From Protonemura montana (taxonomy: Eukaryota; Arthropoda; Insecta; Plecoptera; Nemouridae): DNA of 64,000 bases. The notes below the pieces were generated by a model. It saw only the letters and a program-made list of their open reading frames with translations, was not told where the DNA came from and did no database searches. Shown here one piece after another: positions 11,240 to 63,995 of the stretch. Each line of letters opens with the position of its first letter. Position 1 is the stretch's first letter. A program made the position numbers and the translations under genes. The DNA lies in assembly GCA_947568835.1 (NCBI GenBank), contig OX387603.1, forward strand, positions 5,988,701 through 6,052,700, written 5' to 3'.

Positions 11240-11507
11240 AATGTCTAGCATATAGGCGACGGCGAGTGTCCGCTCCTTTGCGTGGACCAAAACAAGCACC
11301 CAGTCATGGAATGTCCAGCACAGAGGCGACGGCGAGTGTCCGCTCCTTTGCGGGGAGCGAAACTAGCACCCTGTCACGGAATGTCCAGCATAGAGGCGAC
11401 GGCGAGTGTCCGCTCCTTTGCGTGGACCAAAACAAGCACCCAGTCATGGAATGTCCAGCACAGAGGTGACGGCGAGTGTCCGATCCGTTGTGGGGAGTGA
11501 AACAAGT
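11240..11507 (+). repeat. 70-bp satellite array 1 (about 3.8 copies)
   Basis: Tandem units of 70 bp carry the landmarks GTGTCCGCTCC, AAACAAGCACC, GGAATGTCCAGC and GGCGACGGCGAG. I define this direction as sense. Two units have GGACCA in place of the usual GGAGCG hairpin arm. The left edge (GGTCAAGACAC then TAATGTCT) is shared with array 2. Confidence 0.92.
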
Positions 11508-12085
11508 CGTGGCTTAGGTCTCTTAATCGAATTCAGAAAACAGAGCTGGTTTTCTCAAGATGTTCATTGATAGTGGTCGGTGCCGGCTAAATATATCCTC
11601 CCTTGCTACGGTGTTTTTCTAAGCCATCTTTTATGGAATTCACGAGCCGACTAAAAAATTGCAATACAAATTATAGGCACAGAAAAAAATGCAATGACGC
11701 AAACTCAATCGATCACTTGCCACGATTCACGTGACGTCCGACTTTGCAAATTTCCTTGCGTCTTCTTGAGTGGTAGGCTTATTGAGTGTTTGAATGCGCT
11801 CTCGAGGATGGTGCTACAGACATTTCCAAACTTATGGTGTTGCGAAGAGGTCCAAAATACGTGAATAAACAACACTGGGATTGAGTGGGATTCGTGCTGT
11901 CAAATCGTGGTCTTACCGTAAATTTAACAACAATATTCACAATGTAAGTTGCAGGTTTTGGATAAAATTTGGATCGAACAGCAATTTTTTAGAGATATAT
12001 TTCTTTCTTGGTTAAAAAAATATAGCTAAAGTTTATGATGCTTTTTAGACTCATGTCTACTTGATTTAGCTTTAGCACTAGTTTT

Positions 12086-12395
12086 AACAAAAACTATTTG
12101 AAATGGGTTTTGAATGCTAAGTAAAGGACAACTAAATTTCCCGACGTTTCGTAACATGTACTAGCTACTTCTTCAAGGGTTAGAGCAGTCCTGGTTCCTA
12201 GTTTTCCAGTCCAGTCCAAATTTCTTAGTTCAAGCATCCCAGGAAATTGTTATAATTTTGTGTGGTTCTTTTGTTATCGGAAAACTGTCAGGACTGCTCT
12301 AACCCTTGAAGAAGTAACTAGTACATGTTACGAAACGTCGGGAAATTTAGTTGTCCTTTACTTAGCATTTAAAACCCATTTAAATAGTTTTTGTT
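12086..12395. mobile_element. Palindromic element with 107-bp arms and hammerhead-like motif
   Basis: Left arm 12086-12193 and right arm 12289-12395 are reverse complements with only two substitutions and one indel. The arms contain, on the plus strand at 12300-12343, ccttgaagaagtaac, a short loop, gttacgaaacgtc. This is the layout of a CTGATGA-hairpin-GAAAC core, here degenerate. The central 95 bp is unique. An exact 15-base direct repeat (tatagctaaagttta) lies at 12021-12035 and 12399-12413. Confidence 0.85.
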
Positions 12396-12413
12396 AGGTA
12401 TAGCTAAAGTTTA

Positions 12414-15400
12414 ATTATCTTTCCGTGAATTTCAAGTTGTGCTGTAATTCACACGATTTTTACAACAAATTACTCTTTGTAATGCAGCAAAGATTATGTA
12501 GCAACGCAACTCAATCGATGCCGTCCGATCTCTGTTTTTCTCCTCCCGATAAAGAATAACTTTTATGATATTATTCAAGATATTCATGATCTTAATCTTA
12601 ATCTTTATCCAGGGCTAGTTACATGATCTGCCTGGTGATAAGAGACGTTAAAAAAGATTCGGCCAAACTTGTATCCAACGAGCAGAAATACACATAAGCA
12701 CATTTGTAAGTTAAGCATACAGATATTTTACTGTTTTTTTTTACACCAGTCTCAGGTAATAACTAAAGTTTTTTTTTAAACAAAAAGAAAATACTGCATC
12801 AACGCCACAATAAATATCTCTCAAATCCCTAACTCAAATCACTCATATAGACTACGAATGCAGCGAGTATACTGCTAGAATTCTGATTGTATTCAAAATA
12901 TGCAAGATATTCCTATACATATTCCAGATACAAATCTTAAGTTTTATAAAACAATTATATAATCCACTTCAAGATAAACCGAATTGAATAATATTTACCC
13001 AATCTTGTAAACGCAATGCATTGGCATGCATACTTTAGCATATGAGAACTGCCATACATAGACCATCATCTAACAATCTAGCACCTTGTATGACCGATGA
13101 AAGAAATAAAGAAATCAATTAGCAAACAATGCAATTAATTGTGCGAAACAATTGGAACATGACAGAGCACGCAATCGGGTACTGCTATTATGATATACAT
13201 TCTGTTTACACGACCCAGGTAGCGTAATCGCAAGAGCTCGTTTTGTTTTCCCCATCTTTGTGGTGATTGCAATTCCGACTGGCAGGTACAATGTTCACAA
13301 GTGTAATAGATGTCCAGCGCAACTAACCTATAGCAATGTACAGTTATGTCATCTAGTGTTTTTACTCAAGAAGCTGAGAGCGAGTTGTCAAATGGGATTA
13401 TGTAATTCATTATCTGTCGCTAGCTCGGAAGTCTCTCAAACAACTTATTATTATTTTATAAGAGTGACCTAGAGTGAGTCTTTAACACTGTAAATGAGAG
13501 TATGCCAATTTTGAGCACGTAGGGCGTGTTTTTACTTTTCTTTGCCTGGTGTTAGTTTGCTGCACTAAAGTAAATAAAATATTGATATGGGACACAAAAG
13601 AAGATAAATATTATTTTAGACAGTGTGGAATGGAATGTGTAGGCTTGTGTAGGCATGCACAAACCCACTCTTCTTGTTGTTACACGCTCGCCATTTCACC
13701 ACTAGAAGAATTGCTATGAAAATATCATTAAAAGTCTTGAGAATTCTAGGGAGATAATACATTAATCTTCCTGTGGTACCATTTTCTTGTCGGCGAAAAA
13801 AGATTTCAATGACAACAGTAGAATGTATCCACAAATCATAAACACATTTGTTGCAAGAATAACCGTGAGTCAGTATCACATCAACAAATGAAAATATAAA
13901 CTAGTGATTTTTAGATTTTCTTAGAAAATTGATATGTGTGGATTCGATTTAGAACGCAGATTCTAACCGATGTTCCATTACAGTTTTTGTTTAATAACTG
14001 CATAGGTTTAACAAGGTGTTTGGTTATTGAGTTTGAGGCGAAAGGCTTGGATCAAGAAAAAATATATTTTCCTCACTATACTGATTACAGAAGCAATGAC
14101 ATCCACTCGGCAATGGCTGCCAACTGCACCTTCATATTTGCACTCCAAGCGAAAATGTGCGCCATGTTGATTCGTCACCAGAGGAGAGTGGCAGTCAATA
14201 TTTAGGGGTTTCAGACCATTACGCGTATAGAACATATATTTTCATAACACAATAAAAATTAAAAAAACAAACAAAGTTTTGGCCGGGAACAAACTCTTGT
14301 TTCTGGAAGATGAATGGTTATTGTTCTGTAAGTCACTGTTTGGGGCTCATTTTGGTTGTTTTAGAAACAACAAGTGTTTCTATATTTGATATGCTACCAA
14401 AGAGACGTTTTTTGGAGTCAGGAAATGGTATTCCTACATCTAATTTTCTTTTAATTCGAAACATTTTGGTGGGTTATTTTTGACCAAGGATAGCCAAAAA
14501 CACGTCGGTCAACGTAAGGTCAATTTATCTTTATGCTTAAAGAAACAAATAAGAATAGCAAAAACCTTATCACCAAGTAAATCAGTCTTTGCCCTCCAAA
14601 AGTAAATCACTGAACGAAGCTTGAGGATATAAGATGCAAATACCAATCTCAAATACCTAACAATGGGTGCTGCTCTCATGGTTCAAATGGGGCGGGATAT
14701 CATCGCGTCTTTGCAGAGGGCATGTCACGACTGCCAAAATATGCGTTGCTAACTCTAGGCTTAGAATTTGGGAATTTGTCAGAAAAACTAGAAAATAGAA
14801 AATGGCCAAAGAATAGTTCGCTACGGAAAAGAACAAAAAGAAACACTCTCTACAACCCAGTAAAGTCAAAGGAGGGCCGATATTAAAAACAGGTACTTTT
14901 CGGATTAAACTCTAGATCATTTGAACTGGAATAAAGTGACTGTGATAAAATTGCCTATTGCGTCACAACGCCCAGAGTTATGGTGATACGTCATGGCTAT
15001 GACGGCAACGATGACGGTGTTGCACATTAACACCGTATTCCATGGAGTCTATTGTCATTTAATCGGGGACTCCCACTGTAGCCAGCAAAACATGTCAGAT
15101 GCCACGTTTTAGCAATTATATACCACTGGCATTTGCATGGCCTTCAATTTTCGCGTTGAGAATACGCTGAGAGTGGGTCGGAACACGCGTGTGACAAGAA
15201 AGTACCTTTAAATGTTTTTACTTTTTACGTATTTAATGAATACATTTTAGTTTCTACGCTCGCTCGTCTAAAGCATTTAGGATATTTTTCGAAAAATGTT
15301 TGTTTATTTGTTTATAAAGTAGATAACTTGCAGTTAGCAACCAATTCAAGTGATTTTTAAATTGACTGAAGTTAAGTTCCTTCCTTTAATTTTCCTTCGA

Positions 15401-16982
15401 TCCACTGGGCTCGGATATTTCAAATTGAAGGTTAAAATTGATGTGCTTTTCATTTGCTCTCTCCTGCATTCTAGTTGTAGACATGGCGAGCTAACAGCTT
15501 GGTGTGGAAAGAATTTACAGGCCTAGCCTATGAGAGAAAATCAATTTATTTAAAAATCGACAGCTATCCAAAGATATGGTTGACCATTAAGGTCGAGCTT
15601 ACTGATCTATACTTTAATACAATTTGTTATTAATAATATTTATGATTATGGTTATGGTAGTTATGAAGTGTTGTTGTCTGAGGATAGAAAAAAAATACAA
15701 AAATGTTCTTTACTCTGCTTATGCAGGTTACTGTCCATGTTTTTTTCCTCGTTTAATTCAATGGTATGGTAAGATGGGTGAAGCAAGCGAAGAAAAGACT
15801 CAATATGACTACACGGGAAAAACACAATTTGTTGTTTTTATGTCTGGTCGCTTTTACCGGCCAAACAATTTTATCGATTTGAACGAAGCCCAGAGTTGTT
15901 ACGGTTTTTTCTTTTATTAAGAGAATTTACGGTTTTGTTTTAAATCGAGATTTTCATAAAAATATCCAGACACATTGGTAGGTGGGAATTTGCAGATTTA
16001 GTATACTTGGCAAAAGTTTTGCGCTACGAAAAGGAACATGAACATGATTTTTTCTTTCCTAAGAAAAATTAAGTTTTAAAGAGTAAAAGAAAAAACTCGG
16101 GTCAAATTCACTGTTCCTTTGTACTAACCATTACCCCGCAAGTGTCAATCACGGCTTACTGTAATAGATTGAATCATGAGCCAATGAGAGTAAAGTCTGA
16201 CTGCGGTAAGCAAATTCCTCTTCTCATCTGGCATCGAACTCTCTCCTGACAGTCGACGTGTATGCAGACCTTTCACGTGCATATGAACACAACGTGCTGC
16301 ACCATGGCAACCAGGTTGTTATTATCGTTTAATTGACGGTTAAACGTTACCATAGCCACGATGAATCTCAAAATCACTCTGATAGGCGGTTACATTTAAG
16401 AGAATGTTCACTTGTCTGGGTTTAATTCTGCCGAAAGATATTAGACAATGCCTCGACAAATTTCTGGTACATTTCAGCGCATGTAAGCTTGCACTCTATT
16501 ATAGTCAAACACTAGCATAGTCAAACGTGTCTCAGTGTAAAAATAAAAGACCGACAATTATCGATATTATGTTTGGACGCAGAGCGGCATAAAAGTAAGT
16601 ATATTTAAATAGAAAGATTAAAAAAAAATTGGGCTGAACACAAAACAAAAATCGGCAACGAAGAAAACAAACATGTCAAACAGCACGCTTCCGAACTCTA
16701 TTCGCTAGATTTCGTAAATTAACTTATTCATAATTTATAGCGCGTTGTTGTTATGTAAGACAAAATCTAGAAAAAACAACACACTTTCTTTGCTTGACCA
16801 ATGAAGCAGTTCAATTAATGACGTAAGACTCGGATATCCAGTCAAAGATCTCATATTTGTCCGATTCTAAGCATGGCTGAGATGTCTGAGTCCGGCAGCA
16901 ATCCATGAGATAGCTGTCCATGATGGCAGATGGAAGCCCGTTGGCCAATAACTGTCCCTACAGAGGAGTGTGAACCGTCACC
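12414..16982. other. Intergenic, no gene seen
   Basis: Only dispersed repeat R copy b (15780-15890) is recognisable. The remaining open frames are short and lack splice or domain support. Confidence 0.45.
15780..15890 (+). repeat. Dispersed repeat R, copy b
   Basis: This copy has gcgaagaaaagactcaatat, gactacacggg, and taccggccaaacaattttat followed by cgatttgaacgaag, in the same order as in copy c. An open frame of 98 codons across this repeat is not considered a gene. Confidence 0.5.
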
Positions 16983-17430
16983 TCCGTCGCCTCTGTGTTG
17001 GACATTTCGTGACAGGGTGCTTGTTTCGCTCCACGCAAAGGAGCGGACACTCGCCGTCGCCTCTGTGCTGGACATTCCGTGACAGGGTGCTTGTTTCGCT
17101 CCACGCAAAGGAGCGGACACTCGCCGTCGCTTCTGTGCTGGACATTTCGTGACAGGGTGCTTGTTTCGCTCCACGCAAAGGAGCGGACACTCGCCGTCGC
17201 TTCTGTGCTGGACATTCCGTGACAGGGTACTTGTTTCGCTCCACGTAAAGGAGCGGACACTCGCCGTCGCTTCTGTGCTGGACATTTCGTGACAGGGTGC
17301 TTGTTTCGCTCTACGCAAGGGAGCAGACACTCGCCGTCGCTTCTGTGCTGGACATTCCGTGACAGGGTGCTTGTTTCGCTCCACGCAAAGGAGCGGACAC
17401 TCACCGTCGCCTATGTTTTAGACATTATGT
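16983..17430 (-). repeat. 70-bp satellite array 2 (about 6.4 copies)
   Basis: This is the largest array of the standard unit. The landmark gacatt(c/t)cgtgac recurs at 17001, 17071, 17141, 17211, 17281 and 17351, exactly 70 bp apart. The sense strand has no stop codons, so long open frames cross it; these are not genes. The right edge repeats the AAGGTCAAGACAC edge of array 1 in inverse orientation. Confidence 0.95.
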
Positions 17431-17604
17431 GTCTTGACCTTTGGAGCAAATAAATATAGGTTTTCTCTTGCAAAATAAAGAAGATCTTCTTGCACATATC
17501 TGCCTTCTCTCTAACTGACCTGGGATCTGCCACGTTTTTGAAAGCAATTACTCGTTTTTCTTTGTTTTCTTGATGGTTTTCTTCTCGTTCTTCTCGGTAT
17601 TTTT

Positions 17605-18825: not shown

Positions 18826-18875
18826 ACAAGAATGAGGACAACGTTAAGGTGTAAAGGTGGTTTCTATCAAAAGGG

Positions 18876-19885: not shown

Positions 19886-19888
19886 ATA

Positions 19889-19920
<32 letters not shown>

Positions 19921-22055: not shown

Positions 22056-24189
22056 CATTTTCTGAAACTTTTGCTTGAAGCCAATTGAGATAAAAAGGAA
22101 GGTGGACGAGGAAATTTTGAAACATTTATCATCATTCTGCGCATGGCTCTCGGTACTTAAAAACATGATTTTATATCGTGCTCATACAAGCAACAAAGTA
22201 TTCTGTTCCGGAGACCCATGTTTGTATAAAATAAGGACATATCTGGAAATAATGCTGCTCCCCGGCGGTTTTCAGCTTTCCACGCGTATTTTTCTAAATC
22301 TAATATGTACAACTACAAGTAAACAAGTAAGCAGAAGTCTGTTTGCTAAGAAGTCCACTTTCAATCACAGTCAACCTGAGTAACGCGAATAAAAAAATAT
22401 TGCAAGTGATCATGCTGATGTTTCTACGGCGACAGCAATGGCGACCAGTTGACTGCCCAAGGCGATTTTAAGAAAGGTGACTGCCTTCCTGCCTACCTTC
22501 CGAGCGAATTGTCTAAAATATATTATTATTCGGACTTTCGAAAGCTGTTTTAGCGCCGAAACTCAAACTTGATCGTAACCGTATGTCGAGAAATTCAGAT
22601 GGATTTCATCGACCAGTGCAGCAAAAAATAACCTAGCTGTGGATTGGTACTCTTTATGATTGCATTATGCAGGGGAGATAACACACGCGAAGTAGTGAGC
22701 AAATTTGTTCATTCTTTTGAGTTATGTAATCATCGTCCCGTTCAAATTATGCACTTTGAAGTCATAAAACAGATTGGCTTTTCGGTAATACACTCACTGA
22801 ATGTAGGTGAGGTCCAATTTTCCTATGCTTAAACTCATTTGGCAATCAATGAGGCAACACAATATCAATGACCATATTTACATTTTCATACATGCGTTTA
22901 AATTACGGCTATTGCATCGCAGCAAAAATAAATAATAATTTTAAGCCCGAATGTGGTCAGCAATAATGGCAACCACTCAACAGTCGTGCATTCTTTACTA
23001 GCTACATTATCCGTACTCCAACCGGTTTAAACCACGACTATCTCTTTTAGGCGCGTTAGTGCGTTTAATTGCGTTTAATCGCGGAGGTGATAAGTATCCG
23101 AAAAATTGTCAGAAGAAATGGACGAGGAACTGAGTCGCTGGCGATCGACGATCACCTTAATCTTAGCTGATACCGTTTGAAGAAAATCTAAACTATATAA
23201 TCAAGTTATTTTAAGCTTGAATATCCCAATTTTGAGCACGGTTACGAAAAATATGCTCTTAAAATGGTTAAGAGATGTGCCTCGCACATTTTCTACCACA
23301 ATAATATCCTGTACTTATAGCATTAACCATCAGTAAAAAAATACTCAGAGAGTCTTCCTAATATACACACAGTGTCCGCAGTAAAACCTCCCTTATTCGA
23401 GCGACCCGTCTCTCCTAGTTCCCGGATTCAACAAATATTTGTTTTCCAAAAACAAATTGTGCACATTCGTTAGACATTTGAATATTCTTTTAACTATTTA
23501 AATTGATTAACGTCTAAATAGTAAAAACTCGATTAAAAATATATACCCCGATTTACCGCACCAAACGAACACTCTAGAAAATACTTTTGCTTACAATCTC
23601 TTTAAATGCTGTAACTAAGTCGCTAGGTATGAAGTACCTTACCTGAAGGGTGCTCGTTCAGCAATAATCCAGGGTGAGTGTGTAAATTAGCTTCCTTTTT
23701 AACACTGTCGACAAATAATTCAGCTGCTCCCCGATGCACTCTGAGCGAGAAGCAGATCGTGAATGCCGTAATGCCTGCTGCATCAACCGATATTCAGAGT
23801 GAAACCCACTTGGCGCATACAGGTGCAAAAAGGACCAAGCTAGTAGCGTACTTTTGAGATAGAAAGAGGCAGCACTCATGGGCGGGCCTTACCGAAACCT
23901 ATAGAAAAATAAAGTTCAGTTCCTGTATTTCATTTCATTATCATAAACACTTACACTTTCCGTATAACTTTCTTCCTGGCTGAAATGCGAAGATGACCAC
24001 TTCTCTACTGGTCCCATCAACTCGCTAAGGACATGAAAACAAGTTCTCGATTACTGTATTCCAACATGCTGCTCTTAAGGTGTCTAGCTCACAATGTGTT
24101 TTGTTTGTCCAAAAGAAAAGTCACTCTCGCAAGCAATTTGAATAAAAAATGCATATTTTAACTGCTACGAAATTTACTGTAGAGTTATA
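22056..24189. other. Intergenic, nothing recognised
   Basis: AT-rich sequence with scattered short open frames without domain signatures. Confidence 0.45.
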
Positions 24190-24467
24190 CCCTGTCACGG
24201 AATGTTCAGCACAGCAGCGACGGCGAGTCTCCGCTCCTTTACGTAAAGCCAAACAAGCACCCTGTCACGGAATATCCAGCACGGAGGCGACGGCGAGTGT
24301 CTGCTCCTTTGCGTGGAGCGAAACAAGCACCCTGTCACGGAATGTCCAGCACAGAGGCGACGGCGAGTGTCCGCTCCTTTGCGTGGAGCGAAACAAGCAC
24401 CCTGTCATGGAATGTCCAGCACAGAGGCGACGGCGAGTGTCCGCTCCATTGCGGGGAGCGAACAAGC
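24190..24467 (+). repeat. 70-bp satellite array 3 (about 4 copies)
   Basis: Four units in sense direction. The first and last are diverged (TTACGTAAAGCC and ATTGCGGGGAGCG variants), while the middle units match the consensus closely. Confidence 0.92.
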
Positions 24468-33050: not shown

Positions 33051-33790
33051 GCTTGTTTCGCTCCACGCAAAGGAGCGGACACTCTCCGTCACCTCTGTAC
33101 TGGACATTACGTGACAGGGCGCTTGTTTAGCTCACCGCAATGGAGCGGACACTCACCGTCACCTCTGTACTGGACATTACGTGACAGGGCGCTTGTTTAG
33201 GTCACCGCAATGGAGCGGACACTCACCGTCACCTCTGTACTGGACATTACGTGACAGGGCGCTTGTTTAGCTCACCGCAATGGAGCGGACACTCACCGTC
33301 ACCTCTGTACTGGACATTACGTGACAGGGCGCTTGTTTAGCTCACCGCAATGGAGCGGACACTCACCGTCACCTCTGTACTGGACATTACGTGACAGGGC
33401 GCTTGTTTAGCTCACCGCAATGGAGCGGACACTCTCCGTCACCTCTGTACTGGACATTACGTGACAGGGCGCTTGTTTAGCTCACCGCAATGGAGCGGAC
33501 ACTCACCGTCACCTCTGTACTGGACATTACGTGACAGGGTGCTTGTTTAGCTCACCGCAATGGAGCGGACACTCGCCGTCGCCTCTGTACTGGACATTAC
33601 GTGACAGGGCGCTTGTTTAGCTCACCGCAATGGAGCGGACACTCGCCGTCGCCTCTGTGCTGTACATTACGTGACAGGGCGCTTGTTTAGCTCACCGCAA
33701 TGGAGCGGACACTCTCCGTCACCTCTGTACTGGACATTACGTGACAGGGCGCTTGTTTAGCTCACCGCAATGGAGCGGACACTCGCCGTT
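33051..33790 (-). repeat. 70-bp satellite array 4 (about 10.6 copies, homogenised variant)
   Basis: This is the longest array. All units except the left edge unit carry the same private changes (gtttagctcaccgcaatgg in place of gtttcgctccacgcaaagg, and cattacgtgac), and units are almost identical. The left edge unit keeps the standard ctccacgcaaagg. Confidence 0.95.
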
Positions 33791-36717: not shown

Positions 36718-37152
36718 TTATTATTATTATTATTTGTGGTGTTTAACGACGCACTGTTTTGACAACTGACCCTGCGGCACTGGTCTAATGGCGTCGGTGA
36801 ATGAGTGGATGATGATGAGGATGATGATGAACCTAACCTAGCCTAGAAGGGAGGAGGGGAAACCCGGTGTCGGCACGTAGCCTACTCCTGTCGAAGAGCA
36901 CCAAGGGGACCACCGGCTTAACATCCCTTCCGAAGGACGGTACAACTCGAACAGCAGGATTCCTCCACAAATCCATGCTGTCGAGAGGTTGATAAGCAAG
37001 GCGAATGAAGTTGCTGTACTAACTTTCATCCCTCCAACCTCTCTCCCGAACAGAACTGTTCATGTGTATGATGGTCACCCATTCAATACCTGACTCAGCG
37101 CAGTGTTGCTTAACTTCGGTGATTCAACGAGAACCGGTGTTTCCAACACGCC
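36718..37152 (-). mobile_element. 5S rRNA-derived SINE, copy 5 (best preserved)
   Basis: Read on the minus strand: a head with caccggttctcgttgaatca, ccgaagttaagcaacac, and gaatgggtgaccatcat; then a body of about 190 bp with gggatgaaagttagtacagc and gggatgttaagccggtggtc; then a tail with accgacgccattagaccagt and gcgtcgttaaacaccac; then (ATT)n. The head follows the 5S order with 24 bases between GTTAAGCAAC and GGGTGACC, as in 5S genes. Confidence 0.9.
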
Positions 37153-37450
37153 AAACTGTTCGGTGTTGGCATACAGATGTGCTGCTTATAATTTGTTTGA
37201 GCTAGTTGGTTGCTGTGATTGAATCTCTTACAGGGTAACATTAAAATGTTAAATTTACCAAAGTGTGTTTAGTGATAGCAACAAAAATTGTATTAAAGAT
37301 AAAGTTAAAGATAAAGTTGAGAAACGATGCAATGTATATATGATAATTATCCATAAGCCTTTATCTGATGCAGGGCCAGCAACTTGCTTACACTTCGTTT
37401 AAGCAAAATTCCTGGGATACCTGAACCGACCGCTTCCTTAGTTTTCAGCT

Positions 37451-37553
37451 TTCGCCTATGTGCTGTGCTATTCCGCGACAGGGTGCTTTTGCTCCCCGCA
37501 AAGGAGCGGACACTCGCCGTCGCCTCTGTGCTGGACATTCCGTGACAGGGTGC
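37451..37553 (-). repeat. 70-bp satellite array 5 (about 1.5 copies)
   Basis: One full unit with a ggggag variant hairpin and a half unit. It lies 300 bp from the SINE copy ending at 37152. Confidence 0.85.
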
Positions 37554-40359
37554 CTGCAAATACTAGTAGAAAGTAGGTATTTTTTAGTTTAGGGAGAAAT
37601 TATCTATGCCTACCTTTCCGGGGAGAATACAATCAGGCTCTTTACAAGGAAGCACATTGGTCTGTAACTTGTAAGTGCCTTGGAAGTGTATCCTAGCGCA
37701 ACCGATGCTCTTTGTCGAATGCACTGGAGCGTGACTGATTGGAAGTGCAGAAAGAATCAGACTGTTAATAACACAGATTACTGCTTTACCGACTGCCGTG
37801 CAGGTTGATTGCAGTCAGTGCAGATCACGGGGGCAGTGTGTTGTTGACAATCGAGATGCGGATGTTGACATGGTGATTGCTTGATAATTACTGATTCCAC
37901 AGTCTTCCCGATTGGAAGTGATTTCCATTTGGAATGGAGCAAATAAATGAATTAAACAGTTAACGATTGTGTACTTCTCGCTACCAAGATGATTATCATG
38001 TAAGCCGTTGTGCATGGCAGTTTTTGTTGTATTGCGTCACAAATCAGTGTGGTGCCTGAATTAACGTGGTTGAAATTTAATTTATTGAAGGATTTTTTCG
38101 ATATTAATCATCATTTATTAATTTCACGTTACCTATTATTACAAAAAGTTATTATTTGTGTTTGTCATAATTATGCGCATGCGCTTGTTGTAATTTGTCA
38201 TAATCTTTGTGTTTTACCTTCCTTTTTTTCTTTCATAATTGAAAAAAAAATTTAAAAAAGACATTGGCTTCTTGGTTTTACCCTCTGGTAATAAATAGGA
38301 ATTACATTAACCAATATTTTCAGAATAATTATTAAAAAAATTAAAAAAAAAAACAGAAAAATTAATTGCGTCAACATCAGCATGATTGCAAAACTTTTTG
38401 TCAAATCGGGAGATGACTTTTATAATTAAATACCCACATCCTTAACTTGGTTATATCAATCCTTGGGTACTTATTAAGCGTGCGTTTTAAATACAATACG
38501 TCCAAGCTATAGGGTTAGCCAATTGGCCGTGCCGTGGAGACTTTCCCCTCTACCACACCGCCCGTAGTCTGTCGCTACCCAAGTCTATAAAGGACCGTGG
38601 TCGAACTCTGGATCTCAGTGCAAGTTTATCTAGCTACTCTGACGTCGTAGAACCAAGTGATCCAACGGGCTTAACGCAAAAACTGTCATTTTCCAAGACA
38701 AAAGTCTAACGTCGCTTCTAAGATGTATTTCTGCTGTTTTTCTGCCACTTTTCGGGCGTTTTTTGGATTCTTTTGTTGTCGCCCCTGACACATCAAAGTT
38801 ATCCGAGATTTCGGAAAAACATGCGAAGAAAGTGAACAAGATATTTGTCGTGAAGAAGCTTTTTTCACGAGTGTGATTCACTTCGGTTGTGTTTGTGATT
38901 TTTAAATTCTACTCGTTTGGCAACAGGCTTTGTGCGTGTTAGTGTGTTTTTTTTTTTTTTTATATATTATTTATCTTTTGACATATTTGGATATTCAGAT
39001 CTTCGAGATTTTCAAGATCTTCGGTTACTTTGGTTTATAAGGTAACTTCTAACTGCTGCAGTTACGGAATCAACTGTGTGAAGTTGCGACAAGTGTGGTT
39101 CTGTTTTTGTATAGAAGCTCGCGTCATAACAAACAGGCTTGTCGATATATTGCTCTCGGTGCTCGCATAACCTTAGGTCATGAAAATACCTGTCTTTATC
39201 AATGAAAGAGGCGGGGCTATTCCGAACATTGCTCTTTCGTTGTGGTAACAGTAACTAATTTCCACAGAAATGAAAAAAAAAATGGAAAAAGAAGGACATT
39301 TTCAAAACAAGGAATAGGTCAAATCTTGGTTTTTTGGCGTTATGTCAAAAATCATTTTTAAGTTTCGTTATACCAACATTTTTGGGCTTCATAGGAAGAA
39401 GCGATGACCACATTTCCAGATAAGACCGCGGTTTTATATTTTTCTCTCCAAGGTGAATAATTGGAAGACTTCTTTATCTTGCAATCTCTGCCTTTTTTCT
39501 ACGACTCACTTTCTTTGATTACCTTGCCTGCAAAAATGTAAAACTACTGAAAGGAAATCATAACATTATCCTATACCGTAATAGTAAGTTGCAAATAACT
39601 TTGCGGGTTTCAATTCTGCAGCTCTCAGTATCTATGACATTTGCAGAAATGCCTATAGAACCTTTCTTATGCCTGCTTTAAACAGCGGAACTGTTCACCG
39701 AGAGAGGATTCGAATCAGCCAGGAAAAACGGACGATTTCTAGAATACTCTAGCTCTATTATAGCTTGAGAAAGGATGAAAAAGAATTTCATAGTATATCC
39801 GGTGATGGATAGCATTAATGTTACACAGCAATTTATTAGCCAATTCCACAGTTACAGCTATCGTCTTTCATTCAACCAATTACTGGTTCGGCATCACCAC
39901 AGGCCCAGTGGCAGGGAAATGCTTTTTTTGAGATGATAATAATACTCTTTGTTCCACTTTGCAGTTCCTATATGTGGGTAAACCAGAAGTCTGCGCGAGC
40001 ATCTTTTGAAATAGTTTCATCGCGCGCGCGCGCGCGCGCGGTTGGATAATAACAAACAAGTAAACCCAAATTGCGCAATCGGTGTAAAAACATAATTATT
40101 GGCTTTCGCTTGAAATAATAATAACTAATTACTATATCGTAACCTACGGCGCGGTAGATCGCGCGGCGAGAGCAAACGTCTGGCAAACGTCTGGCAAACT
40201 CTGCAAATGTCAGGACGCCGGAAGGTTCGCTTGGCAAACATAATGGCCTAATTTCAATCTTGGGGTGACGAGGGTTATGGCAAGAGCATTTTGCTATTGA
40301 CCAAGATGAAAACTGTATTATCATATGAGCCAATTGCACCCTTTAACGTAGAAAATGGT
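37554..40359. other. Intergenic, simple repeats only
   Basis: It holds a T run at 38946-38961 and the (CG)10 at 40021-40040. No gene could be supported. Confidence 0.45.
40021..40040 (+). repeat. (CG)10 dinucleotide repeat
   Basis: Ten uninterrupted CG dinucleotides in AT-rich surroundings; such runs can adopt Z-DNA. Confidence 0.97.
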
Positions 40360-40598
40360 GGGAGTTCGCTCCTTTGCGTGGAGCGAATCAAGCAGCCTGT
40401 CACGGAATGTCCAGCAGAGACGACAGGTGTCCGCTCATTTTTAGGGACCCAAATAAACAACTTGTCACGAGATTTCCAGTACTTAAACGACGGCGAGTGT
40501 CCGCTCCTTTGCAGGGGACCAAAACAAGCACCCTGTCAGTGTCACGGGATGTCACGCACAAAGGCGACAAAGGTGACCGCTCCTTAGCAATAAGCAAG
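40360..40598 (+). repeat. 70-bp satellite array 6 (about 3.4 diverged copies)
   Basis: Units retain gtccgctcctttg, aaacaagcaccctgtca and gcgac landmarks but have indels and many substitutions, so this is an old array. Confidence 0.8.
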
Positions 40599-42611: not shown

Positions 42612-42820
42612 CCAACCTTTTAGCATGAAGGTTTCAATGCATGGCGAAATTCCCATCTTTTAACATGGAGATTTCAACGCACTACTCACTTCTATCTTTT
42701 AGCATGGATATTTCAACGCGCTGCGGTAATCTCTGTATTTTAACATGGAGATTTCAACGCGCTGCGATAATCTCTGTATTTTAACATGGAGATTTCAACG
42801 CACTTCTATATTCCCTATCG
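42612..42820 (+). repeat. Minisatellite, period 40-41 bp, five copies
   Basis: The landmark ta(a/g)catgga(g/t)atttcaacgc recurs at 42621, 42661, 42700, 42741 and 42782. A lone related piece (aaggagatttcaatgcatcg) lies at 42999. Confidence 0.88.
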
Positions 42821-46835: not shown

Positions 46836-46980
46836 TTTCGCTCGGTGCTTCACTCTCGGAAAAAAGCGGACACTCACCGATTTATCTTGCAGGATATTTC
46901 GTGACAGGGTGTCTGTTTCGCTCCCCGCCAAGGAGCGGACACTCGCCGTCGCCTCTGTAATAGACACTCCACTGAGGGTG
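46836..46980 (-). repeat. 70-bp satellite array 7 (about 2 copies)
   Basis: A good unit (gtttcgctccccgccaaggagcgg) and a degraded one, followed by a run of T. It directly follows a 5S-like fragment at 46760-46830 and lies 160 bp before the ELOVL B exon 1. Confidence 0.82.
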
Positions 46981-47130
46981 TTTTTTTTTTTTTAGACACT
47001 GATAGCAGAAAAACTTTTGGATCCATTGTTGGAAATAACGACATTATATTTTTCCTGCTTTCGGCTCCTGCATTCGTCGACAAATCTCTGGCGGGAGAAG
47101 CTTTGAATAGTGACGTGATATTGTTGTCTT

Positions 47131-50200: not shown

Positions 50201-53200
50201 TCTACCCTGAGTTGATACCACAATTGGAGTAATCTTCCCGGGGTAACTGGTATAGATACTTCTATTCTGTTTTGTTGTCATCGTTTATTCGATGATAAGC
50301 ATTTTTTCACAATTATAAATCTGTCGGGGAATATCAAAATGCAATAATGAAGCAAGCTCAAACCATATCTGCGGTAATTAAATAGGTGTATTTGAAGTTT
50401 TCAGCCAATGGCTGAGGATGACATTAGAACACGAACAAGAAAACATACAAAAAGGCAACAATTCCAGACGTAAGTTCATTTTTTGGCCAATTTAACTTTA
50501 AAAAAGCAGAGAAAAAGTAGAAAATCACTTAGCAGCCTCAAAATCTGGAAATACCCTGGAGCCGGATCCACGAACCAGAATTTTCATTCCCTCAGGACTA
50601 AAAACTAAATACAAATTATTATTAGACGTTCAAAGCTTTGCACGAGTTATTTATTACCATGATGTTGAACAAATAGAAATGAACCCAAAGTAGATCAGCA
50701 GCGTACGAATTAGCCGTCAAAAGTCTCAGGCTGGCAATAATGTTCCAAAAAAAAACTTCTGTGCAAAACATTACAGGTCAAAGAACTGGTGAGGACCAGG
50801 GGTTTAATATCCCGATCGGGTGCTAATTTTTTAGAGGGTGTTAGCATTGAGTGAAATAGTAGAGTCAGAACGCCATCGTTAATGTTAAACTTTCTGCTGA
50901 GCAAACGAGCCGGCAACACGTGGTAACGGCGGTGACCACCCGATGGCGTTTGCATGCACCCTTTCAAACAAACCCCTTCAATTTAATAAGAACGACTCAA
51001 AATATTGGTATCTATATATGAAACGTTAAGTTTAGCATCGATACAGATTAATCGGGCTTAAGGTAGTCTCATGATCCACATATCGACATGGGATCTCGAA
51101 CCAGCCAGCGATGGGTGAAAGAGTGAGTAGATAAATGTCAAAATAGGTGATCAACTTCATATAAAAATTAACCAATAAAGCTAACAGGCCCTGAGAGAAG
51201 ATTCCTGACTTCTTTCATACCTGTCTTAAACTCCATCAAACCCTTGAATTTGTATTTTCCCTTCGCAGGTGGTTGTAGTTTTGTTGATATACATTTATAA
51301 GCTTAATTTAAACACTTTTTATGGAAATAATCAAAGATCCAACGAAACCTGAAACTGCTATGTTTTTGTTGTAAGTAAATTAGTTATAAAGTATGTTGCA
51401 AATATTATTTTGAAGTTTATTTAAACATGGTTTATTCTTAATTAATTTGTTTCAAATATTTATTCACTTTATCTAGTACCAAAGTTGTGCTGGACCTAGT
51501 TATAAACGTGTCATTCTTAGAGGTTTATAAGCATAGTTCAACCAGTTGTCTACAACATACAGCAACCGTGGGAAAACTTTGGTTAGCTGACTTTTTTTCC
51601 CAAACAAACCTTGACCCTGCCAATATACTTAAAAACAGTAATATTCACAAATTTTGTTGTAGGTACACTTCTTAAATTTGGGTAAAACACATTGCTCTCT
51701 CTTTTTTCTACTTGCCAACATATGCCCGCCAAAAATACCTATTTTGAACCTAGCTTGGGCCTAACTTTATTGACGAATCCTGCAAATATGTAACGCGATT
51801 GTCCAGTTCTTAATTCTTGGCGGATGGCGAAACCGCCTGGTGTCCAGGGGCTTCATTAATACCATTATACACCAGATTAATTAGACGTATAACCAATCAA
51901 TTTCCGTCACCGAGGAGGCAAAACGCCGGGAGGTATGCGCTGCTTGTGAATTCATTAACGGGCTAGCTGGTGAGTCAATCAGAGTGTTGATGGGCTGGTA
52001 ATTAAGAGAGAACTCTACTGTGGTCCAAAGTGCGGACGCCAGATGCCTTGGGTGAAGACGGAGATAAATTTAATAATTGAAATCAGGAAACAGATCAGAA
52101 TGATACGCACATGTGATTTATAGGTGGCTAGGTTTTGAGGGATTAACATGTAGTATTATGTAATGCTTGTAATGAAATTACTTTTAAACATGCAACATTT
52201 CTTCTAGTTACAGAGTCTCCACTAAATATGCACTAATTTCTCATTAAAGTCCTAATTATACTTATCTTGGAAAACGTCTGAATTTTTAAATTCTGAACTC
52301 AAATAAGTAAACACGTTATAATTAGTACTTCACTTAGCACATAAAATACTCATTTAGGAAAATTATTTTAAAAAAACTGCTAATTGGAAAGGTAAACTGG
52401 TACCAAACCATTCGAAAAGACAATAGGACATTTCTTCGGCGTGGTCACACCTTTACATCCTAAACGCTCGATTAATCTTTATTTGTGCTAACCTCAATTA
52501 TTGATGTACACGAATCAACGATTTGAGTCGTAATTATTTATATGTGAAGGATTTTTAAAAAGAAAAGAGTCAAGCGCCATCGCTTGGCAGCTAGCATTAC
52601 CATGAGCTGTCAACTCGTTTGCTCATCTGACTTTTATGATTTATAATAAGGCACTGCAAAATGAAAAATAAAAACACATACAAGCAGCGTAACACTCTTT
52701 TTAAAATAAATGAAATAGAAATAAAATAAAATTGCATTGGCGGTGTGACTGTGACTAAACCTGTAAACCTATTGGTACAGGATTACCCGGAATCAACATG
52801 ATTTAAATGGGCTTTACGAATACCGAGAGTCATCGTTAGGAAACTGATTACGTAGCTCAGCTTCGTGTAAGAAAATTCACATAATGGATTTTTAACTGTG
52901 TGTCGTGCTCCATGGATTCTCGGCCTAGTTAGCGCCCACGCCGGCAAGCGCAAAACCGCAGCGAATTACCGTGAAGAAATGTACTATTTTGCCGCGCGCG
53001 TGTAAGTCTCCCAAAAAGGCAGCTAGCACGAATTGCACCTGTTAAAAGTTACGTGTCTTCAACAATCGAGTTTAATTGTTGTCAACATGGTCGACGGCTG
53101 GTGTTCGCTTCTTTGCGGGGAGATAAACAAGCACCCTGTCACGGAATTAACAGCAGAGAGGGGATGGCGAGTGTTCGCTCCTTTGCGTGGAGCAAAACCA

Positions 53201-56200
53201 GCACCCTGTCACGGAATGTCCAGCACAGAGGCGACGGCGAGTGTCCGCTCCTTTGCGTGGAGCGAAACAAGCACCCTGTCACGGAATGTACAGCACAGAG
53301 GCGACGGCGAGTGTCCGCTCCTTTGCGTGGAGCGAAACAAGCGCCCTGTCACGGAATGTCCAGCATAGAGGCGACGGCGAGTGTCCGCTCCTGCACTGGA
53401 ACTGAGGAGCGAACAGCAGACCTTGACGGACAGTTTCAAGGTCGTTCGCCGACATATTTTACTGTAATTATTGTGGCTCTGTTCTCCAGAAGCAACTTCC
53501 CATAGGGTTGTTTCTGTCTCATTCCCGTAAAGCAGAGAATTTCTCATCTACCTTTATGTTCTCCTACTTATTCTTCTTCTCTTTATGTTCTTCTTTTTTA
53601 TCCAGATAAAGATAAAGTCAACGCATTTTTTTATCTAGAGATTGAACAAAGAAAGCGGTAATAAATTGATTCGGAGGTGGAAGATAGTTAAAATTATCAT
53701 AGTAAATTTGATATTAGGCTGGGAATTGTGTTTAAACTAAATATTTATATAATGTATAAACAGTGAAAGATTAAAATGTTTTTTCACCAAACGACCTATT
53801 TTTGGAAAGAATGGATAAATTTTGGTTTTAGCATGTAAATAGATTGAAATTGGTTCGAATGGTCACCCGTGTCTGCGTCGTGTATAAAAGTGAGCCTCTG
53901 GTTTACCGATGTTGTGTTTTGCTTGTGTTACAGCACCTCATGAGCGGCTGGTTGCTAGACTACAGCTACAAGTGCCAGCCTGTTGACTACTCGCATAAAC
54001 CGGCTGCACTCCGGGTGAGACGTGTTCCATAACATCCGATTGTGGAAATTTAATTTAGAATCATTTTCGGCCAAAATCCGTTCAAATTCATTGCCTAAAA
54101 ACGTTTTACACTTGGTGAAAAATAATAAAAAACAAAAACGTTGTCATTTACGCCGTTCTCCTAGTTCACGTTCTTAAACTACGCATTTCGCATGAAAGAG
54201 TGTGAAGGAATCAATAATTAAGAATAGGGTGGTTTTGATACCTCTAAGAAAACATCTAAGAGGGTCTGAAGTCTGCACTGCACATTAATCATGGCTGCAA
54301 AGGATATGTAACCCGATTCTTTAACCAGCGGCTTTGAAGCGGTATTGAAGACTATTTCTGTTTTGATTGGTGGCTTACATTTGAAGAGCCCAAAGAAAAC
54401 AACATTCAGTGTCATCTCCCAAAATCATCAGCTCACAACATTAGCATAAGGTGTACTCAACGGAAATCTCTGGAGAAAATCGAGTCTCTCGTGTGGTTAC
54501 AAGCACACTGGGTTCACTGATCTTCCCTGAAATTGCAGTTTTGACTTTCGGGATTTCAGGAGAGAAAGGTACAAAACGTGTAGTTCCCGTTGTAACGCTG
54601 TTTTGCTTGACAATTGCCCGCAGATGGCCAACCTGTGCTGGTGGTACTACATCTCCAAGCTGACTGAGTTCATGGACACGGTAAGAATTGACTCCTGGGT
54701 TCCTGGCACTGACGCCAAGGGGACAGGGTTGACAGAGGTCATAAAGTGATCTAGTAGTAATAAGTAGTAATTTTACCCTTAGCTTCCTGTTTGGGGAGGC
54801 AAATTCTAGGCTTACATTACCACTAGTGATAGACCTTTGCGAACTTTATGGTCAACTTATCATAATCTGACAGAATTAAAAAAAACGTTTACCCATATTC
54901 CTGGACCACATTTGGTTTGAATTTGCATCAGCTAGAAATCTTTTAAAATTAAAAAAAAAAATAGACCATCATTATGTGAGGCCAAAATAGACTAGAACAT
55001 CCAATCACTAAGCTTCTTTCTCAAATAAAGGAAAAGCAGTTTTTTATGAAACCCTGGAATACCTATTTCATTTCTTCGACCAAAATCTCTGTCTCTTAAA
55101 ATCTCTTAGCTGTGATCCAAAACCCTTCGATTGTTTCTCTCCTACTGCCGCTCTCGTTTTTTAACTAAACCCACCATTTGTTCACGATATCTGGCAGATC
55201 TTCTTCGTGATGCGCAAGAAGGACCAGCAGATCAGCGTGCTGCACCTGTATCACCACACCCTGACGCCCATCGAAACGTGGGTGTGCGTCAAGTTCCTCG
55301 CCGGCGGCCACGGCACCTTCTCCAACCTCGTCAACAACGTCGTGCACGTCATCATGTACTTCTACTACATGATGGCCGCTTTGGGGCCCGAGTACCAGAA
55401 GTACCTCTGGTGGAAAAAACACCTCACAACAGTTCAGCTGGTACCTATACTCTTGAATATGTCTGGCCCAAAGCGTTGATGTTTCAAGACCCACTTTGTT
55501 ACACATCAAATAATATGATACATTGGATTGCCCCAACGACAAAACATAGCTCCAGACACGATATTGGTGGAGTTCATCCTCTGGCATTGCTCCTCCACCT
55601 TTCTTAAAGACATGGCTCCACCATCGCATGACTCCTCCATTTCATAGCACCTTCGTGGGTGTGGCTCCTCCACCAACATGGTTCCTTATACCTGTCTGCT
55701 TTCTTCCATCGACTGCGCCGAAGGAATATCGCCAAAGAGTGCGTCAAGTCATCCTTGGATCTTAGGATGTTGGCCAGAAGAAACCCATACGTGCCAGCAC
55801 TGGGTCATTATCTTCAGCCCGCCCCTTGCGAACAGCTATAGTCCAGCCCTAGCGAGAAGATATTGTTATACTAAACAAATATCAATTTTCCAAATTATGA
55901 ATTTATATAACAAAAAAATGGTTACTAAAGCTTTGATAAGGCATTTTCTTTCTTGGGGTAGGCAATATCAAGAGCACTAACCCCTACGAGTCGACGAAAG
56001 GCCAGAAACTAACTCCCAGTATTTCCGTTGCAGTTGCAGTTCTTCCTCGTCTTCATCCACTCGGCACAGGTACTAATCTTCGACTGCGGATACCCGAAGA
56101 TCATCGGTTCGTTCCTTCTTGTCCACTCGGTCATCTTCTTCGCTATGTTCTTCGATTTCTACCAGCAAGCGTACAAAAAGTCGCAGACAAAGAAGATCGA

Positions 56201-61170: not shown

Positions 61171-61560
61171 TGGAAACACCGGTTTTTACTGAACTGGACC
61201 AGGCATTGGATGGGTGACCAGCAAACATATGGCCAGTTCTGTCTGGGCATTGGGGATGCAGTTAGTACAGCTTCATTCACTTTGCTTATCAACCTCTCGA
61301 CAGCATGGATTTGTGGAAGAATCCTGTCATTCGACTTGTACCTTTGCTTGTACTATCCTTCGGGAGAAACTTTCAGCCGGTGGTCCTATTGGTGCTCATC
61401 GTCAGGAGCAGGCTAGGAACCGGCACCGGGTTGAACCTCCTTCCTTCCAGACAGGAGCTAGGTTCATCATCACCCACTCATACACCGACGCCATTAGACC
61501 AGTGCCCGTTGTCGAAAAAGTGCGTCGTTAATCACAATTGACAACAAATCAATCAATCAT
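61171..61560 (+). mobile_element. 5S rRNA-derived SINE, copy 6
   Basis: The head has lost about 20 bases between accggtt and the C box (ggcattggatgggtgaccag). The body and tail (cgacgccattagaccagtgc, gtgcgtcgttaatcac) are good, ending in aatcaatcaatc. Confidence 0.85.
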
Positions 61561-63673
61561 GTCTTTTGAATTGATGAACTCAACCAGAAAATTAGATAAT
61601 CTAAACGGAATAAATTGTGAAATACATAAGAGTTGCAGGTTCAGCATTTTCGAGAAATGTAGGCTCGTTTCATCTGGTACAGATGTCATAAATCGACTTA
61701 GGGGTTCAGGTTGGATTCGATGCTCTCTTACGAAAAACAGTATGGTGTAAAAACCCTCTGACTCACTTCTCACGGCAAAAAATGGGTCTAGAGATATTTG
61801 ACGTAGTAGGTATCTTTTCTCACATCATGGACAGTAGAGTAGCCAAACGACTAACCGGCTTCCAACCCCTGCGCTCTGATGTCAAGGCAAGTGTCGAACA
61901 TGCATGGGTTGAGTTCTATGCGCTCGGCACGATGCACGTGAACTGCACACTGGATCGATATGGCCACCCCTGTTGTCCGACGATGGGGACGGGGTGGGGG
62001 GTGATGAGAATGACGTCATCGGGGTAGGGAAAGTTCGACAGACGAGTCTAGCCGGTGCCGGGTGTTTTTTTTGTGAGGGTGATGCTGGCGGGGAGGGGGG
62101 GGGGGGGGGGGGGCTACGGCCTATACTTTCCCGACCGCGAGAGAGTGTATTTTCCAGCCGCAACATGTACCACCGAATTTAAGTGTGAGACAACAGCAAT
62201 TTTGTTACAGTTAGACGAAAAACGAGAGTTACGAAAGTGTAGGTTTTTGAAGAGATACCACAAATCCAGTCTGTTGATGATAAATTACTTGTGGTTATGG
62301 AGAATCATCATGGATATTTTTTAAGAGTTGGGAACTTATGAGAGTTATTCATTGATTAAAATATCCAGCAGAGTTCGAATACTCGATTTTTTTCTTGATA
62401 TGAATGTCAAACATGGTATTCATACTACATGGCTGGACCCTAAGTGTGTGCTGGGTGAAAAAATAACCATAAAATCAAACACAGCGAGGTCCGTAGTCAT
62501 AATAGTCACAAAAATAGAGTACATTTTCTCTAAGCCCAGTCTCTTTTAGCCCACTTACCACCCTTCGGCCCCTGTGCCATTCTAAATAGGTGGCGTCCCA
62601 ATAAATCTCAAAAGGACGACAGATTGGCAGATTGGGTTTGTAAGTATAATAGGTATTTAAGAGGCAAAGAATGAGTTAGGGTATAACCAAAGGAACAAAT
62701 ATAAATCTAAATTCTGGTGACAAAGCAGTGAATTCTACAAACACCGAGCTGTCAAAACAGAGTTTTTTCACTCCTCGAATAGTTCCACCACTGCATCCTG
62801 ATTCCTGTCCACGAACACAATTGCCCAACGCACTGCTAAGTACGAAATGAACAGGAATCGCGGCAATCACAGCAACTTGATCTACTACCCAACATGCTGC
62901 GAGCTAGCGTCACGCAATGCGTGCGTTAAATGTTCTTGAAGGCAGGGTTGGAACCCGGGCTTTCCCACGCTCTCTAGACTTGCCGACTCCTAGCAAAGAA
63001 CAATTCTGCCGAACTTCATTCCAACTACTCGGGACAGCTGCAAAGTACTCGGCCAATAGCTCGCCGTTTCGTAGACCGATTCGATGTCTTAAAAGACCGT
63101 CTACAATTAAAAAAATAAATTGTGGGTACCAAACCGCACCTAATTGAAAACGCTTTATATACTCATCTCTTTTACGATTTTTGTATCACGTTTCTGTAGT
63201 TTGCGTTTTCAACAACTTTTTGTCATCTTCCAAATTACTTTTGGAAACGGAGTCCCGTTTTAAAGAAAAACTTGAGCATTCTAAAATGATTGAGCGTTTA
63301 TTAAAGTATATACCTACAGGGAGTTATGCCGCTCATTATCGCTTCCTGCACGGACCAAGTGGTAGGCAAAAGATACACGTCTCCGGGTTGCACGGTTTGC
63401 AAATGGACAAGGTTCGAGCCCAGGCTGGGTCTCGGCCACGGGCTCTCCGTGTATTTTGTAGTCAGGGGGGTGGGGGCAACTTGGATCACACAATTGTTGG
63501 CACGAATGCCGGCTTGGCTTCCGAAGACCACGCTACTCTTATCGGTCTGCTGAAATGTAATACAGCAAGCGAGGCGTCGCGTGTCTGCCGCTTGCAATAA
63601 TTAGCAACACGCCGAATAGGCGAATTCTTGAAGTAGGCTTTCCACCCTTTCCTGGGGTCCCGGCAAGGTAGGT
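61561..63673. other. Right flank, nothing recognised beyond the G-rich tract
   Basis: A stretch at 63330-63600 is GC-richer and includes ggttcgagccc, which fits a Pol III B box. No A box or tRNA cloverleaf could be built, so it is left uncalled; it could be part of a tRNA-derived SINE. Confidence 0.35.
61983..62113 (+). repeat. G-rich tract ending in a run of 19 G
   Basis: The stretch 61983-62000 has ggggacggggtggggggtg, and 62095-62113 is an unbroken run of 19 G. The plus strand could form G-quadruplexes. Open frames here are Gly-rich artefacts. Confidence 0.9.
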
Positions 63674-63995
63674 AGCCGTCGCCTCTGTACTGGACATTCC
63701 GTGACAGGGTGCTTGTTTCACTCCCTGCAAAGGAGTGGGGTCTCGAAGTCGCTTCTGTGCTGGACATTCCATGACAGGGTGCTTGTTTCACTCCACGCAA
63801 AGGAGCGGACACTCGCCGTCGCCTCTGTGCTGGACATTCCGTGACAGGGTGCTTGTTTCGCTCCACGCAAAACAGCGGACACTCGCCGTCGCCTCTGTGC
63901 TGGACATTCCGTGACAGGGTGCTTGTTTCGCTCTCTTCAAAGGAGCGGACACTCGCCTTCACCACTCCGTTGAACAATTCGTGACAGACAGTGCG
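63674..63995 (-). repeat. 70-bp satellite array 9 (about 4.6 copies, reaching the right edge)
   Basis: Standard units with a diverged edge unit at each side (ctccctgcaaaggagtggg at left, ttcaccactccgttgaacaa at right). Homology continues to about 63995 and may go on past the window. Confidence 0.9.

Follow-up and report, generated by a model that had tools for sequence, protein, structure and literature searches.

The route by which satellite DNA leaves heterochromatin, or a source locus, and reaches dispersed euchromatic positions is an open question; as a rule, the outcome alone is visible. The window, a 64,000-nucleotide stretch of the plecopteran Protonemura montana (contig OX387603.1, positions 5,988,701 to 6,052,700), bears on this question: its array edges hold some information on how joining took place, namely a preferred point of the unit and a one-sided genomic motif in fixed register. 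BLAST with the consensus unit agrees with the original prediction of one 70-bp unit at nine loci on both strands, with four arrays in plus and five in minus orientation, ranging from 1.5 copies (array 5, 37452-37556, minus) to 10.6 (array 4, 33051-33789, minus). TRF at a score of 50 lists six of the nine, including array 8 (53092-53392, plus, 4.3 units) and array 9 (63675-63987, minus, 4.5 units); absent from its list are array 5 and two arrays of old units that match the consensus at 79% and 80% respectively, array 6 (40364-40588, plus, 3.2 units) and array 7 (46857-46987, minus, 1.9 units). With at most one mismatch allowed, a 20-mer taken from the unit matches 22 times in the window and never in 100 dinucleotide shuffles.

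The family extends far beyond this stretch. Near-exact matches to the 20-mer number 3,717 in 258 Mb (1,396 forward and 2,321 reverse; reversed-pattern control 0), unevenly spread across the genome among the matches listed, so the 70-mer is not confined to the window. Nor are the nine loci parts of one segmental duplication, since the flanks adjoining the arrays share no sequence at E 1e-4. The picture is of a 70-bp tandem unit scattered over many unrelated sites, as in dispersed satellite DNA of the TCAST type. Outside the window, complete arrays number 40 and their median length is 13 units, in a sample picked by consensus similarity, which over-represents young arrays there. Across flanks of up to 400 bp from 55 arrays, nothing common adjoins the arrays (BLAST, E 1e-4, blind to words of 15-20 bases). 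Compared with about 197 kb of sequence, these flanks yield 115 matches at E 1e-4, none less than 46 bases from an array edge. All 115 are other repeats further out, some of them 5S-derived or other satellites. A carrier element was rejected because the flank matches of the 55 arrays are such distant repeats, at least 46 bases off. At the very array edges, direct duplications are no more frequent than in shuffled pairs (common words, 46 arrays, about 12 flank bases per side, a span that would miss one beyond the motif). The 20-mer has no match in viral contigs, and its single match in prokaryote genome contigs (a Thermoleophilia MAG) was put down to chance. Six 17-20-mers of the unit match nothing in the papers searched, and no publication on the unit was found, which is no proof of absence.

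Units cluster little by array or chromosome, in a star-like pattern resembling the TCAST-like dispersed satellite. In a set of 54 arrays with 661 units, two units of the same array diverge by a median of 4.3% and two units on different chromosomes by 5.1%; for the 45 arrays of at least six units, the median goes from 3.8% at lag 1 to 3.9% at lag 7. The nearest neighbour of a unit lies in the same array in 21% of 656 cases, on the same chromosome in 29% and on another chromosome in 50%. One exception is array 4, a locally amplified variant whose units diverge by 3.6% among themselves and by 13.4% from other arrays. Another is some sharing within arrays: derived changes are shared at 0.548, compared with 0.342 in mixed pseudo-arrays (at least six units, outside the window), an excess that implies some growth or conversion after insertion. 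Copying of ordered blocks of unit variants between arrays was rejected, as the best 6-unit matches have a median of 0.0310 versus 0.0333 with unit order shuffled, and pairs at or below 0.02 (144/990) are hardly more frequent than in the shuffled control (118/990).

Arrays spanning 0.2% to 18% divergence agree on the consensus at 69/70 positions, and young, middle and old classes share one consensus with 1/70 positions differing (array 4 being excluded from the old class). Similar divergence within arrays and between chromosomes, together with one consensus across ages, makes the arrays look as if they were inserted ready-made from a constant source and then decayed. A constant consensus over such different divergences argues for a long-lived, constrained source, closer to a transposon master than to concerted evolution.

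Only two neighbouring arrays hint at a local origin. Array 1 (11240-11506, plus, 3.8 units) is preceded by AAGGTCAAGACACCT (11225-11239, plus), and array 2 (16984-17426, minus, 6.3 units) has on its left, in unit orientation, the inverted partner AAGGTCAAGACACAT (17427-17441, minus), the two being alike by eye at 14/15 bases. The junction pattern AAGGTCAAGACACNTAATGT is exact at these arrays and nowhere else. With two mismatches it appears at four more places, compared with eight for its reversed control, and it was rejected as a left end of the family. Copying inside the region through small inverted duplications could produce this pair, but it fits the remaining loci poorly and is very improbable as a general account: no other flank likeness adjoins the arrays at E 1e-4, and array pairs less than 100 kb apart are less alike (11.6% divergence against 4.4-5.8% for distant pairs), though many of these close pairs are old window arrays.

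The right ends of the arrays are not random. Every unit carries a hairpin, CGCTCC-7 nt-GGAGCG, at phases 43-61, and 23/50 right ends fall just past it at phases 61-69 (14% expected, p 5e-8), while none of the 50 falls at phases 9-29 (34% expected, p 7e-10); the expectations come from simulated random arrays put through the same edge caller. A majority of these ends are accompanied by CGGTTTAGGNNNCTT, a degenerate motif some 14 bp long, in a register fixed relative to the unit. Its columns 78, 79 and 84 reach p 2e-6 to 5e-10 (n=24), compared with a minimum of 3e-6 in 2000 jittered controls. The motif was first spotted by eye in the same sample used to score it; in leave-one-out scoring, the locked register is the best of 40 offsets in 15/23 arrays ending at phases 61-69. 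Across chromosomes it is best in 7/11 and 7/12 arrays, training on C2 and testing on the others and then in reverse. Three of the 15 locked arrays score low (L059 1.4, L070 2.5, L009 3.3), and 8/23 have their best match away from the locked register. Among 24 further scored arrays, that register is best only in L062 and, weakly, L006. Within the window, array 1 ends at phase 68 and is followed by GGCTTAGGTCTCTT in locked register (11511-11524, plus; rank 1/40 offsets, leave-one-out). Array 5 has CGGTTCAGGTATCCCA (37413-37428, minus) close to its right end, at offset 23 and outside the locked register, and the best offset also differs from it in array 3 (24189-24467, plus, 4.0 units, phases 0 to 69, hence whole units) and in array 4.

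This pattern is one-sided. Left ends have no fixed-register motif column (smallest p 0.0067). At offsets 1-11 their flanks agree with the unit in register (151/506 against 23.8%; 0/65 other registers), an agreement that is gone at 12 bases and may reflect erosion of the edge. Right flanks lack an in-register unit match except at offsets 11-15 (83/250 against 26%). Letters between array end and motif match the unit at only 12/41 positions and so are not unit letters, which means that simple ligation of a linear end does not account for a register that is fixed while the junction varies. Older arrays have no weaker motifs (rho -0.03, n=23), as would be predicted if the block had met the site when it inserted, and not if a copied tail were decaying.

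Taken at about an even chance, the preferred reading is that of a dispersing satellite, whose ready-made tandem blocks come from a constant source and are joined by a preferred right end near the motif. What moves would be a block ranging from several 70-bp units to a few dozen. Tandem concatemers would arise from a source whose sequence stays constant, most simply through rolling-circle copying of a small circle, and the blocks were probably rolled off such a circle. In about half of the arrays, the block would join its new site by the right end just past the hairpin, beside CGGTTTAGGNNNCTT, with a putative enzyme or template reading hairpin and motif; joining at the left end would be less strict. 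After insertion, arrays would decay mainly by point mutation, fastest at CpG. The insertions, apparently made over a long time, suggest a directed route for satellite DNA, and the motif offers a definite target site open to testing and a handle by which the enzyme or template could be sought directly. A more specific version, improbable as it stands, makes the satellite itself the mobile element: circles of 70-bp units would be integrated by a putative site-specific recombinase or Rep-like enzyme binding the hairpin and the genomic half-site CGGTTTAGGNNNCTT at fixed spacing. If crossover could fall at any point of the core of about 11 bp that separates the two, both the fixed register and the variable junction would follow.

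The main rival, though somewhat unlikely, treats the arrays as the internal repeats of an ancient TIR element (a MITE or foldback), with locked motif and hairpin forming a TIR whose left copy is mostly lost or decayed. Inverted hairpin-plus-motif copies do lie left of L045, L061 and L067 (clear, all outside the window) and, more weakly, of L071 and L003; an inverted score of at least 12 occurs in 4/48 left flanks (within 150 bp) versus 0.5 when shuffled, but the far-left inverted control also reaches 2/44 and the left forward count is 1/48. L046 adds two oppositely oriented arrays 610 bp apart. Precedent exists in the Tetris foldback of Drosophila virilis, where, in the cited account, satellite arrays are supplied by tandem repeats lying inside inverted repeats; its TIRs reach 1,735 bp, however, with TSDs of 8-10 bp, whereas few, short inverted ends occur here (PMC4079207). 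The left side without a fixed-register column, the steady motif strength and the letters just beyond the unit, which differ even where arrays are young (L065, for example), also speak against such an element. As for the mobile element carrying the tandem repeat inside it, put forward originally, the flanks show no conventional carrier at E 1e-4, but a MITE-like ancestry may apply, given the three clear inverted ends.

Passive movement is unlikely, yet it accounts for part of the data. Satellite circles or broken fragments would recombine at slight unit homology without a dedicated enzyme, as the in-register left flanks would allow, and near-whole unit numbers point the same way. Excised circles and rolling-circle copying are discussed for Tribolium in the cited part of PMC5844308, and T. 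freemani circles hold satellite arrays, as told in PMC13081366. The short reach of the left match and the specific motif on the right flanks weigh against it. The whole-unit signal itself is weak: Rayleigh p is 0.019 and permutation p 0.027 (n=49), but 23/49 arrays lie within 12 bp of a whole number compared with 20.7 permuted (p 0.29), and the end classes give p 0.22 and 0.067, and the 14 locked arrays p 0.076. Reinsertion of circular satellite DNA, the other route of the original prediction, accordingly gains from the star-like units and only weakly from unit numbers. Neither a mobile element nor circle reinsertion alone predicts a motif in fixed register beside right ends.

Known systems resemble the dispersing satellite in single features. 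According to the cited passages, TCAST satellites in Tribolium castaneum euchromatin likewise lie near genes, with near and distant repeats equally diverged and read as independent insertions, but they tend to be single, unlike the median of 13 units, preferred right end and locked flanking motif here (PMC5844308). Helitron-tied satellites of Crassostrea gigas also form many short scattered arrays, some with a one-sided element box, yet the end boxes described are conserved 42-53 bp segments, whereas the present family has just a degenerate motif roughly 14 bp long, and no element was found (PMC8268682). Truncated Helitrons repeated in tandem, which combine numerous 5' ends with one 3' end (Xiong et al. 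2016, as told in PMC12628747), share the tandem block and the one defined end with a hairpin near it; in the present family the hairpin is in every unit, and no Helitron end or protein was identified. In the mollusc satellite phBglII400, junctions likewise cluster at a unit palindrome, 13/16 of them at a longer one, and the cited passages report no in-register flanking motif, unlike here (PMC5139131). A hairpin near a fixed 3' end, described for Helitron-type elements (PMC12628747) as a rolling-circle hallmark, is seen at 23/50 right ends and not at the rest.

Among ten window ORFs scanned for proteins, only ELO appeared, in two of the ten. Helitrons begin with 5' TC and end with 3' CTRR, and no such common ends were seen by eye in the array edge lists. 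A retrozyme, self-cleaving ribozyme or structured RNA was rejected after no Rfam match up to E 10 at 16900-17500 (described families only). Folding is no better than in shuffles for the plus monomer (z -0.18) and plus dimer (z 0.46), and the minus monomer gives z -1.27. An HMM profile of the right tail had too little power as a query (9 matches, best E 0.16). Away from arrays, two solitary tails with a score of at least 16 occur in the window (453 and 55125), compared with 0-1 in ten Markov copies.

The original prediction placed nine arrays of one 70-bp unit in the window, and all nine are present. The window spans contig C2:5988701-6052700, and the host is an arthropod, since the mitochondrial contig (C34, 15,885 bp) carries its tRNAs in the order of the pancrustacean ground pattern. 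The unit has 61% G+C within a region of 39% G+C and contains a single hairpin, with a 6-bp stem, at phases 43-61, where phase is the position in the unit from 0 (the A of ACCCTGTCAC) to 69 (the last C of AACAAGC). Two exons of ELO-family fatty acid elongases lie in the window on opposite strands, at 2689-2979 (minus; Pfam E 3e-10) and 55165-55476 (plus; Pfam E 2e-26), so the arrays sit in gene-bearing DNA. An unrelated 41-bp tandem array occupies 42618-42804.

Comparison of 55 arrays, the nine in the window and 46 from 45 other loci, shows that the right ends, taken in unit orientation, are far from random. At least 60 bp of flank was available on the right side of 49 of the 55 arrays and on the left side of 51; selection of the loci for resemblance to the consensus tilts the sample to young arrays, and most arrays of the window are older. 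Of 50 right ends, 23 lie at phases 61-69 and none at phases 9-29, while simulated arrays with random ends give roughly flat phases with the same edge caller. Past the right end lies a motif, C-GG-TTT-AGG-NNN-C-TT, which occupies columns 72-86 on the scale of unit phase. Its best three columns reach p values of 2e-6 to 5e-10, against a minimum of 3e-6 in 2,000 jittered controls, the motif having originally been spotted by eye in the very sample later scored.

Validation consisted of leave-one-out and cross-chromosome tests inside this one sample. Among the 23 arrays ending at phases 61-69, the locked register, meaning the motif at its fixed position in unit phase, ranks first among 40 offsets in 15 (leave-one-out; 0.6 expected), three of which score low. 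It is not the best in the other eight, including the young arrays L047 and L054. Of the 24 arrays whose right ends lie at other phases, L062 (13.4) and L006 (just 1.7) alone rank it first. With the motif trained on contig C2, which carries the window, the locked register holds for 7 of the 11 arrays from other chromosomes; training on those gives 7 of 12 on C2. Between the array end and phase 69, unit letters matched in just 12 of 41 cases; the register of the motif therefore follows the unit and not the junction. Motif strength is uncorrelated with the age of the array (rho -0.03, n=23).

Left ends behave differently in part: no fixed-register column was found in the left flanks (smallest p 0.0067). 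They resemble the unit slightly at offsets 1-11 (151/506 versus 23.8%), which may reflect erosion of old edges. In held-out scoring with the hairpin and motif, a threshold of at least 12 is reached by 4 of the 25 right flanks that lie outside the training class and, with the pattern inverted, by 4 of 48 left flanks, each versus 0.5 in shuffles; controls give 0/25 for the opposite strand of the held-out right flanks, 1/48 for left flanks read forward, 0/37 for far right and 2/44 for far left inverted sequence. L045, L061 and L067 have inverted left ends scoring at least 20, and ten Markov copies of the window yield 0 or 1 hits of at least 16. A few arrays thus carry an inverted left end, and as an alternative the arrays may be the inner repeats of an old TIR element. 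Within about 12 flank bases per side, the span searched for direct duplications, words shared at the array edges were no commoner than in shuffled pairs. End minus start phase clusters near zero (mean -4 bp, n=49; p 0.019 by the Rayleigh test and 0.027 by permutation). The clustering is stronger at 94% identity or above (p 0.003, n=42, a post hoc cut); the two end classes taken singly give p 0.067 and 0.22, and simply counting the arrays within 12 bp yields no significant excess (23/49 versus 20.7, p 0.29). Together these values only hint at whole-unit numbers.

The divergence of 661 units extracted from 54 arrays bears on whether arrays arrive ready-made or grow locally. Median divergence is 4.3% inside arrays versus 5.1% between arrays on different chromosomes, and the nearest unit (656 units) lies in the same array in 21%, on the same chromosome in 29% and on another in 50%. 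Divergence is nearly independent of spacing: across 45 arrays of at least 6 units, neighbours (lag 1) differ by 3.8% and units at lag 7 by 3.9%. Per-array divergence from the consensus spans 0.2% to 18%, and the consensus sequences of the three age classes, with 6 young, 38 middle and 9 old arrays, agree everywhere but at position 0, where young arrays carry G and not A. Interior units lie 2.4% from the consensus, first and last units 3.7-3.8%. This pattern is what insertion of already-tandem DNA from a constant source would leave. Derived changes are nevertheless shared between units of an array in 474 of 865 cases (0.548) versus 0.342 in mixed pseudo-arrays (arrays of at least 6 units outside the window), an excess that indicates some local copying and speaks against purely ready-made insertion. 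The clearest case of local growth is the array at 33051-33789, a diverged variant amplified in place, which is left out of the age-class comparison.

Taken as a whole, the data fit a model in which blocks of concatenated units are joined to new sites, in about half of the arrays by one defined end near the recurring motif. Rolling-circle copying would be the simplest maker of such blocks. Site-specific strand exchange inside a short core, with a hairpin half-site on one side and the motif on the other, is a more speculative reading that would suit a fixed register with a variable junction. Published accounts describe dispersed, unclustered satellites in Tribolium (PMC5844308), mollusc satellites whose array junctions lie at a palindrome (PMC5139131), element boxes on one side of arrays in oyster (PMC8268682) and, as related in PMC12628747, Helitrons in tandem that share a single 3' end. 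No report of a motif in register with a satellite unit was found in the excerpts of the literature searched.

Across the 258.5-Mb assembly (34 contigs), a unit 20-mer allowing at most one mismatch matches at 1,396 places on the forward strand and 2,321 on the reverse; the window holds 22 of these 3,717, about 24 times its share by length. The exact 159-base consensus occurs 52 times (C2 17, C12 4, C14 28, C15 3, other contigs 0), and similarity searches, with 40 of 356 and 40 of 306 candidates scored, also place copies on C11 and C13 and at about 0.56 Mb of C3 and 0.82 Mb of C4. From these counts and contigs, the distribution of consensus-like copies looks strongly uneven among the matches listed. 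Longer arrays occur at C2 27.25-27.79 Mb, and the 4,500-bp locus L079 is array over its entire length (at least 64 units); these are a possible source locus. The five least diverged sampled arrays (L009, L027, L044, L045 and L047; 0.2-0.6% from consensus) are grouped at C2 1.0-1.63 Mb.

CpG positions make up 14 of the 70 bases of the unit yet carry 459 of 1,042 substitutions. Across all 70-bp arrays, transitions per site are about 2.6 times higher at CpG than at other C/G sites, with C>T (131) more frequent than G>A (84). Outside the arrays the CpG ratio of the window is 0.95, without depletion; the arrays themselves may be methylated.

Other repeats accompany the 70-bp family. A 5S rRNA-like sequence lies at 37044-37164 (minus; Rfam 58 bits), and similar stretches at about 21.7, 28.8 and 61.2-61.5 kb point to a SINE-like repeat derived from 5S. 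Another dispersed satellite, with a unit of 91-92 bp, matches this repeat at the sampled loci L007:84-528, L022:2524-3020, L027:534-983, L044:2454-2700 and L070:2225-2498, loci that also contain numerous further short satellites. At L009:782-1195 and L085:140-446, tandem repeats with units of 52 and 70 bp look tRNA-derived, with A-box-like and B-box-like words recognized by eye. Two inverted 130-bp satellite arrays, L022:1-561 and 768-1240, stand about 206 bp apart in a foldback-like arrangement. On C4, 5760925-5777755 contains two COX1 copies separated by 15,886 bp. This spacing, the length of one mitochondrial genome, points to nuclear mitochondrial DNA in tandem or to a misassembly.
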